Source: Acidimicrobiaceae bacterium
Lineage (GTDB): Bacteria > Actinomycetota > Acidimicrobiia > Acidimicrobiales > RAAP-2
Reading direction: 5' to 3'
DNA length: 13,872 nucleotides
Assembly: GCA_003164275.1 (NCBI GenBank)
Contig: PLSY01000152.1
Location: 148-14,019 of the forward strand
Numbering within the stretch: the first letter of the stretch is position 1; each line of letters begins with the position of its first letter. The notes under the pieces were generated by a model, which was not told where the DNA came from, ran no database searches, and worked only from the letters and a program-made list of their open reading frames with translations. Below are positions 2,971 through 13,166 of the stretch, piece by piece. Position numbers and translations under genes: made by a program.

Positions 2971-3063
2971 GCGCCGCCACCGGCGACGTCCGCCGCGACC
3001 GGCCGGGTGACAAGCACCGGGAAAGACTGCCTGCGGCCCGTGCGGTGTGACAGCATTCACCCC

Positions 3064-4260
3064 GTGTTACGAACTCGCGTCCTTGCCCTGATCGCCGTGG
3101 TCGTCATCTGCGGTGGGCTGTGCCTTTCCACCGCCGCCGCCGGCCCTGCCCGCTCGGCAGGCGGGACAAAATGGGCGGCAAGCACGCCCAGCGTCGCCGG
3201 AGCACCCCTCACGTCGCTCGCCGGCGTCACGTGCGTGTCAAGCAGCGACTGCTGGGCCGTCGGGGACCGGTTCAGGTCATCCTCCGCCAAGACCGGCCCT
3301 GCCCTGATCGAGCACTACACAGGTCACGCCTGGACCCCGATGTCCGCCGCGCCGGCCCAGGCGGGCACACTCGACGAGCTCTCCGGAGTCAGCTGCCTGT
3401 CGTCTGCGGACTGCTGGGCCGTCGGGATGCGGAGCGGCTCGCACCCGGGCAACCTTGTGGAGCACTACGGAAACGGGACCCGCTGGACGATGGTCGGCAC
3501 CCCCGGCCCGGAGGGCGAGCTGTCCGCCGTGACCTGTGAGCCCTCGGTCGGCCAGTGCTGGACGGTCGGATCCTCGAGCGACTTCCGGAGGGCGATCACC
3601 TTCCGGCTCGCAGGTGGTCGCTGGAGCTATGTGAGCTCGGCCCCGCTTCAGGCATCGTTCGTGCAGGTGGGCGGAGTGGCCTGCGCCACCGCCGACGACT
3701 GCCTTCTCGTCGGGTTCGTGACACCGAAGCACGGTTCGAGCCAGGCGCTCGCCGAGCGCTGGAACGGCCGCAATTGGTCGCGCGTCGCAGTCGCCGGCCA
3801 GCTGGCCGGCGGGGGATCTCTGGCGGGCGTCGATTGTCGTCCGGGGACGAGCCCGACCAGGTGCTGGGCCGTGGGCCAGACCGTCGGCAAGGGCTCCGGG
3901 CTCGTTCCCATCCACCCGCTCGTCGAGCGCTGGAACGGGCACTCCTTCGCTCTCGTCAACAGCCCGCTCGGAGGACCGGGCAACTACCCCGAGCTCAAGT
4001 CGGTCTCCTGCGGCGCTCCCAAGGTGTGCCAGGCCGTCGGCTCACGCGGTTCGGGAGAGGACGAGGCCTCGGTGCTCACACAGGGCTGGAACGGCTCGGC
4101 CTGGTCGAGGGAGTCAAGCCGCAGCCCGATGTACGGATTCCAAACTCTTGCGGGTGTCTCCTGCCCGACAGCTCAAGATTGCTGGGCCGTTGGCGAAGGA
4201 CAGAACCGCAGTTTCTCGGGCGTGCGGCTCATCATCGAGCACTTCACGGCAGGCCGGTAG
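3064..4260 (+). CDS. Secreted seven-repeat protein, predicted seven-bladed beta-propeller
   Basis: I chose the GTG at 3064 because it places the signal peptide (RTR, then a hydrophobic core at residues 6-26, AAAGPARSAG) at the N-terminus, giving 398 residues. The frame is open further up, and GTG 3007 and GTG 3040 are alternatives; none has a clear ribosome binding site. The mature protein has seven copies of a motif of the form L-x-G/S-V-x-C-(x5-9)-C-W-x-V-G, at about residues 52-67, 106-121, 153-169, 203-217, 253-271, 311-326 and 362-377. The period is about 50 residues, and each copy carries a closely spaced cysteine pair. Between motifs is a second recurring element, hhE-H/R-Y/W-NG-x-x-W. 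Seven such repeats fit a seven-bladed propeller. The last repeat lacks its closing Trp strand, while the N-terminus (KWAASTP) supplies one, as in ring closure. No catalytic residues are recognisable; binding of a polymer or partner is inferred only. Confidence 0.85.
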   Translation: MLRTRVLALIAVVVICGGLCLSTAAAGPARSAGGTKWAASTPSVAGAPLTSLAGVTCVSSSDCWAVGDRFRSSSAKTGPALIEHYTGHAWTPMSAAPAQAGTLDELSGVSCLSSADCWAVGMRSGSHPGNLVEHYGNGTRWTMVGTPGPEGELSAVTCEPSVGQCWTVGSSSDFRRAITFRLAGGRWSYVSSAPLQASFVQVGGVACATADDCLLVGFVTPKHGSSQALAERWNGRNWSRVAVAGQLAGGGSLAGVDCRPGTSPTRCWAVGQTVGKGSGLVPIHPLVERWNGHSFALVNSPLGGPGNYPELKSVSCGAPKVCQAVGSRGSGEDEASVLTQGWNGSAWSRESSRSPMYGFQTLAGVSCPTAQDCWAVGEGQNRSFSGVRLIIEHFTAGR

Positions 4261-4493: not shown

Positions 4494-7049
4494 ATGCGAG
4501 GACTGGGATACGATCCGCGAGCGCGCGGACGACACCTTCGTACCCGGAAGGTTGGTGCCAAGTACGTCCGCCGGAGGGCTGCCTCGGCTCTCGTGCTCGC
4601 CGCGTTGGCGTTGTCCCTGACCGCTGCGGGAGCCGGAGCATCACTCAACTCGAACAGTGTCATCGTCGGCAACACCAGCCCCTCCGGCATCATCACCGCG
4701 GGCGACTCGAAGGCGGTCTGCATCACCGACGGCCCGAGCACCAACAACTTCTCGCGGCTTGCCTACACGACCCTCAACGGGATCACGTACAACTGCTTGG
4801 AGACGTTTTCCGACGCCATGCCGACCTGGTCCGACTGGGTGAACCCGTGGGTGGCTAGCCCAAATGGCCCCTTCGTGCCGTGGGTAGCGGCCGACCCGAC
4901 ACATCACCAGTTGATCGACACCCAGAACCTGATCCCCGACAGCGAAGCATCCAACCCGAACTGGACCGCGGAGTGCGCCGCGGGCGACTACAACTCCTAC
5001 GCCACCCAGTTTGCGACCAACATGATCGCCGCCGGTCTCGGCTCTTCTGTAATCCGCCTCGCCCACGAGATGAACGGCAACTGGTACAACGACAGCCTCG
5101 GTTCGACGCAGGCCCAGTGGACGCAGTGGGACGAGTGCTGGGACCAGGAGGTCTCGGTAATGCGCGGCGTAACCGGGGCGCACTTCCTCTTCGACTGGAA
5201 TGTGAACGCCAACGTCAGGGACATCCCGCTGGCGGACATCTACCCGGGCAACGCCTTCGTCGACATCATCGGCGTCGACTTCTACGACCAGACGGGGCTC
5301 TCCATCCCGGCAGTCGGGCAGCCCGGTCGCTTCCAGGCATTGGCAGCTGAGCCCGACGGCCTGAATGACGTGGCGGCCTTCGCCACCGCCATGGGCAAAC
5401 CCCTGTCGATTCCCGAATGGGGCACCGTGATCAGTCAGGGGGATGATCCCGCCTACGTGACCGCCATGGCGCAGTTCGCGGCGAACAACGACGTCGCTTA
5501 CCAAAGCTGGTTCAACGGTCCAGACGGGATCTACCCGCTGGACCCGAATCAGGACCCGCTGTCAGTCAACGCCTATGTCACGGCCTTCGGCAGCCCGCCA
5601 CCGCCGACGACGACGACGACGGAGCCTCCTACAAGCACGACGACGACTCTTTCGCCGACCACGACGACGACCGCGGCGCGGCCCACGACGACGACCACAC
5701 CGCGGCCCACGACGACGACCACACCGCGGCCCACGACGACGACCATGCCGCCGACGACGACCACATCGCCCACGGCAGCGCCGGCTCAGGCGATTGCCTT
5801 GTCCACGATCAACAACTGCCTCGTGCCGAGGGGCACCTTCACCATCAGCGTTTGCGGCAACAAGTTCGTGAACCAGTCCGGGCAGACCGTCGTGCTCCGC
5901 GGAGCCAATACGGAGGGGACGCAGTACGACTGCACCAATGGCGGGGCGGGATTTTACGCCGACCCGACGATCTCGGCGGGCGATTACGCAACCGAGATCA
6001 GGGCGATGAAAGCGTGGGGCATCAACGTCGTTCGAGTGAACCTGAACGCGGACTGCTGGCTCGGCCTCAACGGCGTGCCTCCGGCCACGTCCGCGACCGG
6101 TTACCCGATTCCCTCCGGCGACAGCTTCGACACGGCAGTCAACTCCTACATGAACGAGATGGGCAACTATGTCGACGCTCTCAACGCCGCTGGCATCTAC
6201 GCCGAGCTGGACCTGGAGCTGAGCACGCCGTTGAGCTTGACGAGCAACGGTGCAGGTTCTCCAAACCCTGTTTACGACGACACCACCCAGCAGTTCTGGC
6301 AGTCCGTAGCCAGCTACTTCCGAAACAATCCAGCCGTGATCCTCGGTGGGTTCAGTCAGCCTTTCCCACCTCAAGCAAATGGCTCCCCGCCCCCCGGCTG
6401 GTCGTGCATCCTCGATGGGTGCCTCGTGCCCAGCTATCCCAACGACGGCGTCGTCACGTCATCGGCTTACCCCAACCAGGGCGTTGCACAGCTCATCTCG
6501 GACATCCGCCAGTACAACACGACGGCACCTCTGGTCGTGCAGGGGCCCGAGACGTCCGGCGACATGAACCAGTGGCTCGCGTACTACTACCCGGGTGGAG
6601 CCTCGCTCGACCCGAGCAACGAGCTTGCATCCGGATTCAGCGTGTACTTCCCGTTCGGGAACTCGCCGTGCTCGTTCACCAAGGACGTCGCCACGGCCTG
6701 CCCGGCTCCCGACACGAGCGCCATGGTGCAGGTTGCCTCGTTGACGCCGGTTCTCGCCGACCAAGTGGGCGACTTCGGCTGTTCCAACTCCGACATGTTC
6801 CCCTTCCTGCAGTCCGTCGACGCCCAGAACTCGACTCACGGCGTCGACATCGGGTACCTCGGATGGGCCTGGACGACTTACAACTGCGACCCGAACCTCA
6901 TCACGGACTGGACCACGGGAGCACCTTCGACCATGGGCGAAGCCGAGTACTGCGAGCTCCTGGATATCGGAGTGGCGCCGCGCACGAATGGTCTGTTCTC
7001 TCCAGAGAACTATTGCACCGGAACGGCTCCGGACGCTGAGCCGAAGTGA
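4494..7049 (+). CDS. Secreted two-domain glycoside hydrolase: GH26-like, Thr/Pro linker, degenerate GH5-like
   Basis: The ATG at 4494 follows GAGGGG by nine bases. A signal peptide (hydrophobic core at residues 30-48, AGAGA-S) comes after an unusually long, Arg-rich N-region of 28 residues; no later in-frame start is available. Residues ~50-365 resemble GH26 (beta-mannanase and related endo-glycanases, a TIM barrel): RLAHEMNGNWY holds the expected acid/base E192 and PLSIPEWG the expected nucleophile E308, so this domain looks active. Residues ~368-432 form a Thr/Pro-rich linker. Residues ~435-835 match the actinobacterial cellulase-type GH5 fold, with INVVRVNLNADCWLG, FWQSVASYFRNNPAVI and GYLGWAWTTYNC as landmarks. 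In this domain the usual NEP reads SQP (Q622) and the usual nucleophile position (G/T-E-I/F-G) reads DQVGD (Q757). The DLHW and WHSYD signatures are also altered. The second domain is therefore probably non-catalytic. The natural substrate, likely a plant- or microbe-derived beta-glycan, is not determinable from sequence. Confidence 0.88.
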   Translation: MRGLGYDPRARGRHLRTRKVGAKYVRRRAASALVLAALALSLTAAGAGASLNSNSVIVGNTSPSGIITAGDSKAVCITDGPSTNNFSRLAYTTLNGITYNCLETFSDAMPTWSDWVNPWVASPNGPFVPWVAADPTHHQLIDTQNLIPDSEASNPNWTAECAAGDYNSYATQFATNMIAAGLGSSVIRLAHEMNGNWYNDSLGSTQAQWTQWDECWDQEVSVMRGVTGAHFLFDWNVNANVRDIPLADIYPGNAFVDIIGVDFYDQTGLSIPAVGQPGRFQALAAEPDGLNDVAAFATAMGKPLSIPEWGTVISQGDDPAYVTAMAQFAANNDVAYQSWFNGPDGIYPLDPNQDPLSVNAYVTAFGSPPPPTTTTTEPPTSTTTTLSPTTTTTAARPTTTTTPRPTTTTTPRPTTTTMPPTTTTSPTAAPAQAIALSTINNCLVPRGTFTISVCGNKFVNQSGQTVVLRGANTEGTQYDCTNGGAGFYADPTISAGDYATEIRAMKAWGINVVRVNLNADCWLGLNGVPPATSATGYPIPSGDSFDTAVNSYMNEMGNYVDALNAAGIYAELDLELSTPLSLTSNGAGSPNPVYDDTTQQFWQSVASYFRNNPAVILGGFSQPFPPQANGSPPPGWSCILDGCLVPSYPNDGVVTSSAYPNQGVAQLISDIRQYNTTAPLVVQGPETSGDMNQWLAYYYPGGASLDPSNELASGFSVYFPFGNSPCSFTKDVATACPAPDTSAMVQVASLTPVLADQVGDFGCSNSDMFPFLQSVDAQNSTHGVDIGYLGWAWTTYNCDPNLITDWTTGAPSTMGEAEYCELLDIGVAPRTNGLFSPENYCTGTAPDAEPK
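5677..5748 (+). repeat. Three tandem 24-bp units within the Thr/Pro linker
   Basis: Units at 5677-5700, 5701-5724 and 5725-5748. The first two are identical and the third differs near its end. Each encodes RPTTTTTP or a close variant (RPTTTTMP in the last). They lie in a longer ACG/CCG-rich low-complexity stretch (about 5595-5785) encoding the interdomain linker. Such perfect repeats suggest recent slippage or unequal exchange, and the linker length may vary between strains. Confidence 0.8.
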
Positions 7050-9860: not shown

Positions 9861-10463
9861 TTACCGCGGCTCAGGAGTCTCGGTTCTGGCCGGAGACGGC
9901 GGCCGGGCCTTCCGACGACTGAGAACAATCAGCAGTGCCAGCACGGCAAGGCAGACGATGAGGAGAACGGCCGGGATGATGAATACCCGCCAAGACGCGC
10001 GCTCCTCGGCCACCTCTCGCGGCGTCGAGAGGAGTTTCGGATCGCTGGCCACCGTCACTCCCTGCAAGGAGCTTCCAGTGGCATGGAAGGCAATTCCCGG
10101 TATGCCCTGTCTGTACTGATGCCCATGGAACGTGTACGTCCCGGTACAGGAGTAGCCAGCCAAGTTGCTGCCGCTTCCTCCCATCAGCCCGTCACATGAT
10201 GCCACCGTGACTGTCACCGGAACCCCGTGCTGGCGCAGATTAGTGACCTGGGAGTTCTTCTGGATGCCAGCGATCAACAGCACGATTCCGACGACGGCTA
10301 GGGCGGCCAGGCAGACACCGATTACCACTTGGCTGGCCCGCCGGGTATCGACGCTGACCGAGGCACCGCGCAAGGTGGTGACAGGTTGATCCGACGGCGC
10401 TGGCGGCGCTGCCACCCCGTCGGCGCCGTGGCTGGTGGTGGGATTGGATTCGGGTGCGATCAT
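9861..10463 (-). CDS. Two-helix membrane protein with DUF3592-like outer domain (200 aa)
   Basis: The frame is open further up to 10607, but I place the start at ATG 10463 because GAGGGA lies eight bases upstream. The upstream alternatives (ATG 10505 and the 10607 start) lack a ribosome binding site, and the longest would overlap the divergent gene at 10586. The protein has a Pro/Ser/Thr-rich cytoplasmic N-terminus, a membrane helix at ~46-67, an outer domain at ~68-159 with two cysteines (C90, C106) likely to form a disulfide, a second helix at ~160-182 and a short basic tail. The outer part (VPVTVTVASCDG followed by YSCTGTYTFHGHQYRQGIPG) resembles the beta-rich DUF3592 pattern in which an extracellular domain sits between two helices. 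The function of that family is not known. It precedes the four-helix protein by eight bases. Confidence 0.75.
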   Translation of the reverse strand: MIAPESNPTTSHGADGVAAPPAPSDQPVTTLRGASVSVDTRRASQVVIGVCLAALAVVGIVLLIAGIQKNSQVTNLRQHGVPVTVTVASCDGLMGGSGSNLAGYSCTGTYTFHGHQYRQGIPGIAFHATGSSLQGVTVASDPKLLSTPREVAEERASWRVFIIPAVLLIVCLAVLALLIVLSRRKARPPSPARTETPEPR

Positions 10464-10572
10464 GCGCGAGATCCCTCGGCTACGCGGCTTATGCCGAGCA
10501 CTCATGCGAGAGCGCAGGCAGCGTAGCAGGGGACCTGTCGCAAGATTCCAGCGCCGGTTGACCCGGCCGAGA

Positions 10573-10578
10573 TAGCCT
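10573..10578 (+). promoter_or_regulatory. Candidate -10 box giving a leaderless transcript
   Basis: TAGCCT (TANNNT form) is followed by seven bases and then the ATG at 10586, and no ribosome binding site is present. In actinobacteria this spacing commonly puts the transcription start on the first base of the start codon. No -35 at standard distance is seen; TTGACC at 10558-10563 is too close. Confidence 0.35.
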
Positions 10579-10585
10579 CCTGCGT

Positions 10586-11008
10586 ATGGCGCCACAATCC
10601 AAAGCACTCGACCTCAAAAGTATCTGGCTGTTCTCGGGGTGCTCGTCGTCAGAGCTCCGCAAGATCCGCAGCTCACTCGACGAGGTGACCGTTCCCGCCG
10701 GCAAGATGCTGGTCGAAGAGGGAAGGGTCGGACTCGAGTTCTTCCTGATCGTCAGCGGCACCGCCACGGTGAAGCGAAACGGGAGGAAAGTGGCCGCTCT
10801 CGGAGAGGGGGGCTATTTCGGCGAACTCGCCCTCTTGGACCGCAAGCCGCGCTCAGCATCGGTGGTCTCTGACACCGAGATGACACTCTTGGTCCTCTCG
10901 CAGCGCCAGTTCAACAGCCTCCTCCAGAGCGTTCCGACCATCGCCCGCAAGATGCTGGCTGCCATGGCCGAGAGGTTGCGGGTGTCTGACGCCAAGGCAT
11001 ACGGCTGA
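10586..11008 (+). CDS. Single-domain cyclic-nucleotide-binding (Crp-type sensor) protein (140 aa)
   Basis: Almost the whole protein is one cNMP-binding beta-roll followed by C-terminal helices. LKSIWLFSGCSSSELRKIRSSL is the usual N-terminal helical lead, and VPAGKMLVEEGRVGLEFFLIVSGTATV the first beta-strands. GGYFGELALLDRKPRSASV is the phosphate-binding cassette, with E80 (ribose contact in known members) and R89 (phosphate contact) both kept. Residues 105-140 form the C-helix region. The DNA-binding helix-turn-helix of Crp/Fnr proteins (about 70 more residues) is absent, and no other output domain is fused. It is therefore likely a cytoplasmic ligand-sensing subunit that acts through a partner, or a cAMP-binding buffer. 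It is divergent from the two membrane-protein genes and convergent with the EtfD-like gene. The ligand (cAMP or other) is inferred from the cassette only. Confidence 0.9.
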   Translation: MAPQSKALDLKSIWLFSGCSSSELRKIRSSLDEVTVPAGKMLVEEGRVGLEFFLIVSGTATVKRNGRKVAALGEGGYFGELALLDRKPRSASVVSDTEMTLLVLSQRQFNSLLQSVPTIARKMLAAMAERLRVSDAKAYG

Positions 11009-11039: not shown

Positions 11040-13166
11040 CTATTCGCCGGCCGCGTCGCCAGGTCCGGCGAAGTCGTCACCAGCCGTCGGGTCGACCGGG
11101 GCGCCCCCACCGACCGGAACGGGCTCGTCGGGCACGCCCATCGACTCCTCGAGAAGTTGTGACAGATCGAGCACTCTGACGTCGTCCTCTTTGGCATGGG
11201 CCCGCACGGCGTCATCGAGCATGATCATGCAGTAGGGACACGCAGTAGAGACCACGTCGGCACCCGTGCCGATGGCCTCCTCCGTGCGTTCCATGTTCAC
11301 GCGCTTGCCGATGTTCTCCTCGAGCCACATGCGAGCACCTCCCGCTCCACAGCAGAATCCCTTCTCCCGACAGCGCTTCATCTCCACCTGCGTGGCTCCG
11401 GGGATCGAGTCGATCACTGATCGAGGCTCGTCGAAGACGCGATTGTGGCGACCGAGGTAACAGGGGTCGTGGTAGGTGACGGTTCCTTTGTAGCCACCTC
11501 CGGGCGTGAGTTTCCCGGCCGTCACCAAGTGGTCCAGCAACTGGCTGTGATGGATGACTTCGAAGTTGCCGCCGAGGGACGGGTACTCGTTGGCCAAGCT
11601 GTTAAAGCAGTGCGGGCAGGTGGCGATCACCTTCTTCACTCCTGCGTTTTCCAAGGTCTCGACATTCATTCGAGCCTGCTCTTGGTAGAGGTACTCGTTG
11701 CCGAGACGACGGGCGGGGTCGCCAGTGCAGCTCTCCTTCGGACCGAGAATGGCAAATGACACCCCGGCTCGGTGGAGCATCCGGGCCGTGGCCTGGGTAC
11801 CCTTCCGGGCCCGCTCGTCGAGGGCGCCGGCGCATCCCACCCAGTAGAGGTACTCGATCTCGTCGGGGATGGTCCCGGTGACGACCGGCACCTCGAAGTC
11901 GAGACCGGCCGTCCAGTCCGAGCGCTTCGATGAGCCGAGCCCCCAGGGATCGCCCTGGTTCTCGATGTTGCGGAGCATGAGTCCGGCCTCGGTTGGGAAC
12001 CTGGACTCCATCAGCACCTCGTAGCGGCGCATATCGATGATGGTGTCGATGTGCTCGATGTCCACCGGGCACTGTTCGACACAGGCGCCGCAGGTCGTAC
12101 AGGACCACAGCACGTCGGGGTCGATGACGGACGGAACGAGGGTCTCGACCTCGATGCCCGCTTCCCGGTTCTTCGTCATCACCCGGTCGGCCGAGGCGAA
12201 CAGGTTGTCCCGCAGATCCATGATCAAGAGCTTGGGGGACAACGGCTTACCCGTGTTCCAGGCAGGGCACTGGGACTGGCAACGACCGCACTCGGTGCAC
12301 GTGGCCATGTCCAGGAGCTGCTTCCACGAGAAGTCCTCGATGCGTCCCGCACCGAACACGACCTCGTCGTCGTCACCCACGTCCTCCATGGACATGTCGG
12401 GGGTCGATGCCAAGGCACCGAGCGCCCTCGGGCGCCTGGATGTGGCCACGTTGATCGGGGCCAGGAAGATATGGAGGTGCTTCGAATACGAGACGAAGAC
12501 CAAGAAGCCGGTGATGATGGCGATGTTGGCCAACAAGGCCACGGTCTCGATGACGCTGTTCACGCCCTCACCGAGAGGCCTCAAGGCGTTGGCCAGTCCG
12601 TGAGAGGCGAAGGCCCACCACCCGTAGGGGAAGTTGCCGGTGTTGACCTGTGCCGCTCTGTACAGGAGCAGCGAGGCGATCACGCCGAAGATCATGAGCA
12701 GGACCAGCCACGCTGCCCCGGTGTGGGACCCGAAGAATCGGGAGCGCCGGTTCTCACGCTTGGGAGAGTGCTTGACCCGGATGAGCACGAACACGAGCAG
12801 GGAGACAATGACGGCAACGGCGAAGAAGTCTTCCAAGAAGCCGATCACGGCGGTGTGGCCGATCAGTGGGATGTGGAAGTTGCGCTGGAAAAGGCAGCCG
12901 AAGGCCTCGATGATGGTGAGGAACAATATGGTGAAGCCCCAGAACGTGAAGGCGTGGGCCACGCCGGGGACGGTCCATTGGAGGAGCTTCTTCTGCCCAC
13001 CAACCTCGACGAGCTCGACCTTGATCCGCTTCGGCACGTCCCGGAACCGGGTCGGCACCGCAGGCTGGCCGGCGGAGATCAGCCTGAACAGCCAGAAGAA
13101 CCGACGGCCGGCGATGGCCAGCATCACGACGGTGATCCCGAGTCCTAAGCCGAGTCTGAGGGGCAC
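11040..13166 (-). CDS. etfD: Membrane (Fe-S) oxidoreductase, EtfD-like (Rv0338c family), 708 aa
   Basis: The start is GTG 13166, with AGGAGG six bases upstream. Residues 1-240 form a NarI-like membrane part of about five to six helices, with candidate haem-b histidines (H71, H104, H189, H230/H232). Two ferredoxin-type [4Fe-4S] motifs follow, C290-x2-C-x2-C-x3-CP and C356-x2-C-x2-C-x3-CP. Two cysteine-rich CCG-type domains, as in heterodisulfide reductase HdrB/D, come next: C445, C480 (in CTGD), C517 and C520; then C569, C605-C606 and C643-x2-C646. Long identical stretches recalled from the mycobacterial protein (such as MATCTECGRCQSQCPAWNTG) support the EtfD assignment. That enzyme takes electrons from the electron transfer flavoprotein (EtfAB) during fatty-acid beta-oxidation and passes them to menaquinone. 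The C-terminal 30 residues are acidic and Pro/Gly-rich. It lies 71 bases downstream of dcd in the same direction; etfAB are not in this window. Confidence 0.85.
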   Translation of the reverse strand: MPLRLGLGLGITVVMLAIAGRRFFWLFRLISAGQPAVPTRFRDVPKRIKVELVEVGGQKKLLQWTVPGVAHAFTFWGFTILFLTIIEAFGCLFQRNFHIPLIGHTAVIGFLEDFFAVAVIVSLLVFVLIRVKHSPKRENRRSRFFGSHTGAAWLVLLMIFGVIASLLLYRAAQVNTGNFPYGWWAFASHGLANALRPLGEGVNSVIETVALLANIAIITGFLVFVSYSKHLHIFLAPINVATSRRPRALGALASTPDMSMEDVGDDDEVVFGAGRIEDFSWKQLLDMATCTECGRCQSQCPAWNTGKPLSPKLLIMDLRDNLFASADRVMTKNREAGIEVETLVPSVIDPDVLWSCTTCGACVEQCPVDIEHIDTIIDMRRYEVLMESRFPTEAGLMLRNIENQGDPWGLGSSKRSDWTAGLDFEVPVVTGTIPDEIEYLYWVGCAGALDERARKGTQATARMLHRAGVSFAILGPKESCTGDPARRLGNEYLYQEQARMNVETLENAGVKKVIATCPHCFNSLANEYPSLGGNFEVIHHSQLLDHLVTAGKLTPGGGYKGTVTYHDPCYLGRHNRVFDEPRSVIDSIPGATQVEMKRCREKGFCCGAGGARMWLEENIGKRVNMERTEEAIGTGADVVSTACPYCMIMLDDAVRAHAKEDDVRVLDLSQLLEESMGVPDEPVPVGGGAPVDPTAGDDFAGPGDAAGE

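Follow-up and report, generated by a model that had tools for sequence, protein, structure and literature searches.

The window analysed here, a stretch of 13,872 nucleotides from an Acidimicrobiaceae bacterium (contig PLSY01000152.1), encodes a secreted two-domain protein whose GH5-like domain carries glutamine in the place of both catalytic glutamates (Table 1). We consider this domain to be, probably, a former GH5 enzyme whose hydrolytic activity was lost by a whole lineage, most simply once, and which has been kept as a non-catalytic, glycan-holding module of a secreted GH26 glycosidase. The order of parts in the 851-aa protein is a signal peptide (recognized by eye only), a GH26 domain, a Thr/Pro linker and the pseudo-GH5 domain. 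Pfam searches placed PF02156 on residues 187-285 (E 3e-9, 37.1 bits vs a cut-off of 20.2), and this part of the protein also matched GH26 mannanases of solved structure (e.g., 2bvt, 2x2y, 4yn5 and 2whk). The alignment to Pfam Cellulase that an initial annotation of this DNA had recommended yielded a match of PF00150 to residues 461-700 (E 8.6e-14; 52.1 bits for the whole protein and 36.6 for the domain alone, with a cut-off of 23.5), and NCBIfam gave no match in the 851-aa GH26/GH5 protein. Third-position GC is similar in the GH26 and GH5 parts (0.87 and 0.83, respectively), which fits a single coding frame throughout 4494-7049.

Table 1. Features of the GH26/pseudo-GH5 gene, in window positions.
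Feature	Position	Strand	Basis
Gene for secreted two-domain protein, 851 aa	4494..7049	+	ORF list; Pfam; signal peptide by eye
GH26-like domain, residues ~53-369 (ends by eye)	4650..5600	+	PF02156; solved GH26 mannanases
E192, predicted GH26 acid/base (LAHEMNG)	5067..5069	+	Glu in 10/10 loci; aligns with HE motif of 2x2y
E308, predicted GH26 nucleophile (SIPEWG)	5415..5417	+	Glu in 10/10 loci
Thr/Pro-rich linker, residues 370-432	5601..5789	+	62-76% identity, 12-54 gapped columns among four fusions
Pseudo-GH5 domain, without catalytic glutamates, residues 433-851	5790..7046	+	PF00150; PDB profile matches 4hty, 5a8m, 8bn7
A519	6048..6050	+	Glu in 59/59 intact sister rows
E575	6216..6218	+	His in 54/59 intact sister rows; Glu/Asp in six pseudo rows read
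S621-Q622, once Asn-Glu acid/base pair	6354..6359	+	Alignments, codon reading
S716	6639..6641	+	His in 59/59 intact sister rows
Q757, once nucleophile	6762..6764	+	Alignments, codon reading

That both GH5 catalytic glutamates have been replaced by Gln, as the initial annotation had claimed, was agreed on by three alignment methods. Reading of the codons (S621, AGT; Q622, CAG at 6357-6359; Q757, CAA at 6762-6764) confirmed the coordinates and residues given for both glutamines, and each of them is, by the genetic code, one base away from a Glu codon, as had been stated. In a MAFFT alignment with homologues, Q622 and Q757 fell on the catalytic Glu columns. By tblastn, Asn-Glu was found at the acid/base site in 13 of 13 genome loci, and Glu at the nucleophile site in the 12 of 12 loci that reach that column. 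Finally, comparison of a 50-row profile with solved GH5 structures placed the NEP motif and the nucleophile Glu of 4hty, 5a8m and 8bn7 on the NEP and Glu columns of the family, where the window protein reads SQP and Q. A catalytic GH5 domain has an acid/base Glu (in Asn-Glu) following strand 4 and a nucleophile Glu following strand 7; the corresponding residues of this domain are S621-Q622 and Q757.

Beside the Glu pair, the classical active-site columns of GH5 are those of an Arg, two His, an Asn, a Tyr and a Trp. The window protein retains R514, Y718 and W791 and has lost both His and the Asn. Two further signatures had been described as altered, and they are: the LDLH of relatives has become LDLE (E575), and ASVH has become SGFS (S716). 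Conservation of the fold is supported as far as the sequences go. Both carboxylates are essential to ordinary retaining hydrolysis in clan GH-A enzymes and, as both are gone, ordinary retaining GH5 hydrolysis by this domain is very unlikely. Neither of the alternative acids that the initial annotation had considered, in the region of E563 or at D760, stands in for them. Position 563 itself is not acidic, as Glu occurs within residues 550-580 only at 555, 571 and 575, and D760 was found in 52 of the 59 intact sister rows alongside their own Glu.

Homologues that keep or lose the same residues were looked for, as had been proposed, among 105 proteins including the window's own, which came from two protein searches with length limits of 0.55 to 1.75 times the query. 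In the MAFFT alignment of the 105 GH5 parts, the acid/base column reads Gln in seven rows (P0001, which is the window protein, P0055, P0002, P0003, P0004, P0056 and P0053) and Glu in the rest wherever it is readable, i.e., in 94 of 94, the four others being fragments; the nucleophile Glu is present in all 98. As the acid/base Gln is common to 7 of 105 proteins, it is not a sequencing accident. These seven rows are the representatives, the ones actually read, of seven clusters with 25 member sequences. At the nucleophile column five of them carry Gln and P0056 carries Val, while P0053 gives no reading there, its frame being broken upstream. P0055 is a separate record with a shifted tail, 98% identical to the window protein over 307 columns. 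In both the P0053 and P0055 records the reading frame is shifted inside the GH5 domain, through either assembly errors or real pseudogenes.

In a maximum-likelihood tree (quick search, 97 rows) built with six active-site columns left out, all seven Gln rows formed one clade (SH-aLRT 97), nested inside the intact family and adjoining P0005, P0006 and P0057. The placement of P0053 and P0056 is unsure because both sit on long branches and P0053 fills just 44% of the columns. The three adjoining proteins (JGI records, "hypothetical" or unnamed) hold the same domain in sister position at 60-64% identity and retain the Asn-Glu pair, the nucleophile Glu and both His; the records found show no GH26 match. 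A third protein search, with the domain of P0053 as query, added P0106 and P0107, which are new but distant proteins and have the NEP motif in the GH5 part. Six pattern matches to relatives were obtained on viral contigs, and none of them was confirmed.

Changes in the clade extend beyond the Glu pair. N621 is replaced by Ser, or by Thr in P0053, H716 by Ser or Asn, and E519 by Ala, Ser or Pro. The six pseudo rows read have Glu or Asp at position 575, where the intact sisters carry His in 54 of 59 and Asp in one; an active-site His has here been swapped for an acid while two other acids disappeared. Acids were gained throughout the pseudo rows at 575, 641, 731 and 767, only the first of which lies among the eight classical columns. 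When the 116 columns with at least 95% conservation in the 59 intact sister rows were compared with six pseudo rows (P0055 left out), 11 were found changed in every pseudo row having a letter there, including 4 of the 7 classical catalytic columns left after this filter (Fisher p 0.0014). Over these 116 columns the window protein departs from the intact consensus 20 times; the median for intact rows is 1 and the highest value 8. From this comparison, the active site has been hit more than elsewhere, though not exclusively. Aromatic residues are conserved at 17 columns of the intact rows, and 13 of these columns, including 6 of 7 Trp, do not differ in any of the four fusions compared, a count that covers cleft-lining and other positions alike. 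The cleft is not uniformly kept, since Y718 has been lost in P0003 and P0056, and R514 and W791 in P0056.

Fusion to GH26 was detected by Pfam in 5 of the 105 proteins (P0001 to P0004 and P0053), all inside the Gln clade, and in none of the 98 intact proteins, for which other architectures could be hidden by the length limits and by the shortness of many records. The P0055 and P0056 records start within the GH5 domain, so that any N-terminal partner lies outside the record. The description of the GH26 domain as intact is supported for its two catalytic glutamates: at E192 and E308, all 10 loci compared carry Glu. Nine of these loci came from one genome search and one from that of the nearest genus; two have in-frame stops in the match, and the weak fragment L093 was left out. 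The domain therefore combines an above-cut-off PF02156 match with both catalytic Glu of GH26. The GH26 of P0053 is just 35% identical to that of the window over 238 columns, and its readable GH5 part 57%, so the pairing of GH26 with GH5 either outlasted the likeness of the partner or arose twice. Loss shared by a clade, together with the GH26 fusion, makes a stronger case for a maintained non-hydrolytic module.

Sequence identity among the four fusions is 87-92% in GH26, 76-86% in GH5 and 62-76% in the linker, and gapped columns number 0-2 in about 420 in the GH5 domain vs 12-54 in the linker. In the quick tree described above, the branch path from the shared node is 0.43 for the window protein vs 0.11, 0.21 and 0.26 for P0005, P0006 and P0057, respectively. 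The pseudo-GH5 domain is thus evolving faster than its GH26 partner and its intact sisters, yet far from freely, and the near absence of indels indicates that it seems to be under constraint. As 69% of the GH5 columns are invariant across the four fusions, the invariance of Q622 and Q757 among them is in itself weak evidence.

Genomes were searched with the GH5 domain as query in a larger order (397 genomes drawn from it, 34 with a match at E 1e-3), in one family (172 genomes, 10 at E 1e-30) and in another (17 genomes, 4 at E 1e-30), these groups overlapping, and with the full protein in the nearest genus (14 genomes, 4 with a match) and in 4 named genomes. The best identity was 63%. Among the 95 loci examined, some of which repeat one place, GH5 was matched in 78 and GH26 in 11, and no locus had the two together; Gln was found at either catalytic column in 0 of the 78 GH5 loci. 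The acid/base residue of these 78 is Glu in 73, unreadable in one and not Glu in four, L057, L058, L060 and L062 (same order, 26-32% identity, long ORFs), which read FASP, FAGP, FVTP and FASP, respectively, at this site. At the nucleophile column of the alignment L057 has Arg and L058 Ser, and both have Lys at the 716 His. Distant relatives have thus apparently also lost catalysis, independently and via other residues, with an alignment that is less sure at 26-32% identity, and such loss seems to be recurrent in the wider family. The Acidimicrobiales MAG JASHUM (G001, ~2.5 Mb) carries eight intact GH5 paralogues (L001-L007 and L011) with 57-63% identity to the window's domain.

Regarding the host genome, the nearest relative of the 708-residue Fe-S oxidoreductase encoded at 11040-13166 was found, among the 397 genomes of the order, in G345 (83% identity), which belongs to the same family as the Acidimicrobiaceae MAG palsa_650 (G002). 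G345 keeps the order ammonium transporter, small protein, Fe-S oxidoreductase and dCTP deaminase, and in the 18 kb of it that were examined there was no match to the GH26-GH5 gene, nor to the three genes on its left or the two at 9861-11008. As G345 keeps the neighbours without the GH26-GH5 gene, this gene looks accessory. Among the 14 genomes of G345's genus, two carry a match of GH26 type (at 43% in one and, as a fragment, at 29% in the other), two a match around the linker only, and none the GH5 domain. Just upstream of the GH26-GH5 gene, the plus strand at 3007-4260 encodes a protein of VSC..A.DCWAVG repeats, for which the single Pfam hit, to DUF6087, fell below threshold. By eye, P0005, one of the close relatives with an intact GH5, has a similar repeat stretch (VSCTSVKACIAVG) as its N-terminus, and because of this such repeats may accompany this GH5 family. 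On the minus strand, 954-2765 encodes a Cys-containing protein of 603 residues whose N-terminus is signal-like and which had nothing above cut-off in Pfam and nothing in NCBIfam.

How such a protein might work can be outlined as follows. The ancestor of a small clade would have lost hydrolysis, most simply in one event, with the near-isosteric Gln at both sites removing charge and chemistry and leaving hydrogen bonds to sugar. The old substrate cleft would keep holding a beta-glycan chain uncut, and the flexible linker would hold the GH26 domain close to its substrate, in the fashion of a carbohydrate-binding module. We infer that glycan binding and targeting of the GH26 domain is the likeliest job of the pseudo-GH5 domain, as the conserved aromatics are mostly retained, the linker is flexible and the partner is a GH26. 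An unlikely reading, though one to be taken seriously, is that the domain is maintained without catalysis and without any glycan binding, serving GH26 as spacer or stabiliser, offering a face for protein binding or acting as an inhibitor decoy. The available portions of two studies offer precedents: Segatella copri GH26B, with a conserved double loss, showed neither hydrolysis nor binding of the glycans tested (PMC12704710), and beetle GH28 pseudoenzymes were reported to be important without catalysis (PMC6549527). The variation of active-site parts among members (Y718, R514, W791) points the same way, and the unchanged aromatic columns, including nearly all Trp, argue against it.

The faster evolution of the domain relative to GH26 and the intact sisters would also agree with simple decay, in which activity is gone and the remainder persists through its fusion to a useful GH26, as would the frames shifted within the domain in P0053 and P0055, which are perhaps assembly errors. 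With almost no gapped columns at 76-86% identity, more than two thirds of columns invariant in four fusions and a state common to six lineages, we regard decay as distinctly improbable. It is still harder to see in the domain a re-wired enzyme in which the carboxylate at 575 does new chemistry, e.g., substrate assistance. Such a carboxylate is present in six pseudo rows vs 1 of 59 intact sister rows and aligns with a His of the classical GH5 active-site motif, and alternate mechanisms for incomplete GH5 were left open in the available text of Aspeborg et al. 2012 (PMC3526467). Against this, the domain has neither canonical carboxylate, nor the His at 716, nor the Glu at 519, and just one of the four acids gained throughout, that at 575, falls on a classical column. 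A sequencing or alignment artefact, finally, deserves hardly any credence: a second fusion record was not found by tblastn in 13 genome loci, but proteins encoded on separate contigs, 76-86% identical, have the same residues, as read in the representatives of seven clusters, and MAFFT, tblastn and the structure profile agree. A non-catalytic, glycan-holding module of GH26 is hence the reading that we prefer.

A 2012 paper described GH5 modules devoid of catalysis, among them one that binds cellulose; according to its relevant part, Rsi24C-GH5 is an inactive GH5 that interacts with cellulose (PMC3526467). As in GH5_30, the Xanthomonas GH5-expansin-CBM63 proteins, the GH5_8-like lipoproteins and Rsi24C-GH5, the GH5 machinery of the window protein is incomplete and occurs in a type of protein that is often multi-domain (PMC3526467, in part). 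Incomplete machinery common to a lineage, which characterizes such modules, is what the window's clade presents. The partners set them apart, which by the descriptions available in that source are an expansin, CBM63, an anti-sigma domain or a large extension (PMC3526467), whereas here the partner is GH26. The Segatella copri GH26|GH5_4 fusion, a type also found in Acetivibrio thermocellum, has GH26 followed by GH5, as here; in the portion of the study available it is presented as multifunctional, with GH5_4 treated as catalytic (PMC12704710), while the GH5 described here is without catalytic Glu. In S. copri GH26B both catalytic residues are replaced and the loss is conserved across genomes, as in the present clade, but the dead part is GH26 and not GH5; the same portion reports that hydrolysis by this protein was not found and that none of glucomannan, xyloglucan, galactomannan, mannan and mannooligosaccharides was bound (PMC12704710). 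No example of a GH26 joined to a GH5 without activity was found in the full-text literature, among the matches listed, as judged from titles and the starts of abstracts in a collection with few subscription journals. Inactive GH5 modules and active GH26-GH5 fusions are already known, and the clade is a new, well-delimited lineage.

Profile-based annotation scores this protein as GH26 plus GH5, i.e., as two activities, of which probably just one exists. Tentatively, and with some doubt on our side, the clade may have founded a GH5-derived carbohydrate-binding family that evolved specifically to partner GH26, in which the Gln-Gln pair and the carboxylate at 575 would take the place of the catalytic pair in a re-set subsite and so confer a specificity for another sugar, or even a novel chemistry. 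In any case, the intact sisters at 60-64% identity and the double-Gln pseudo-enzyme make up a natural series for following the conversion of a hydrolase into a module without catalysis, and the same series poses the question of what a dead catalytic domain contributes to a living one.
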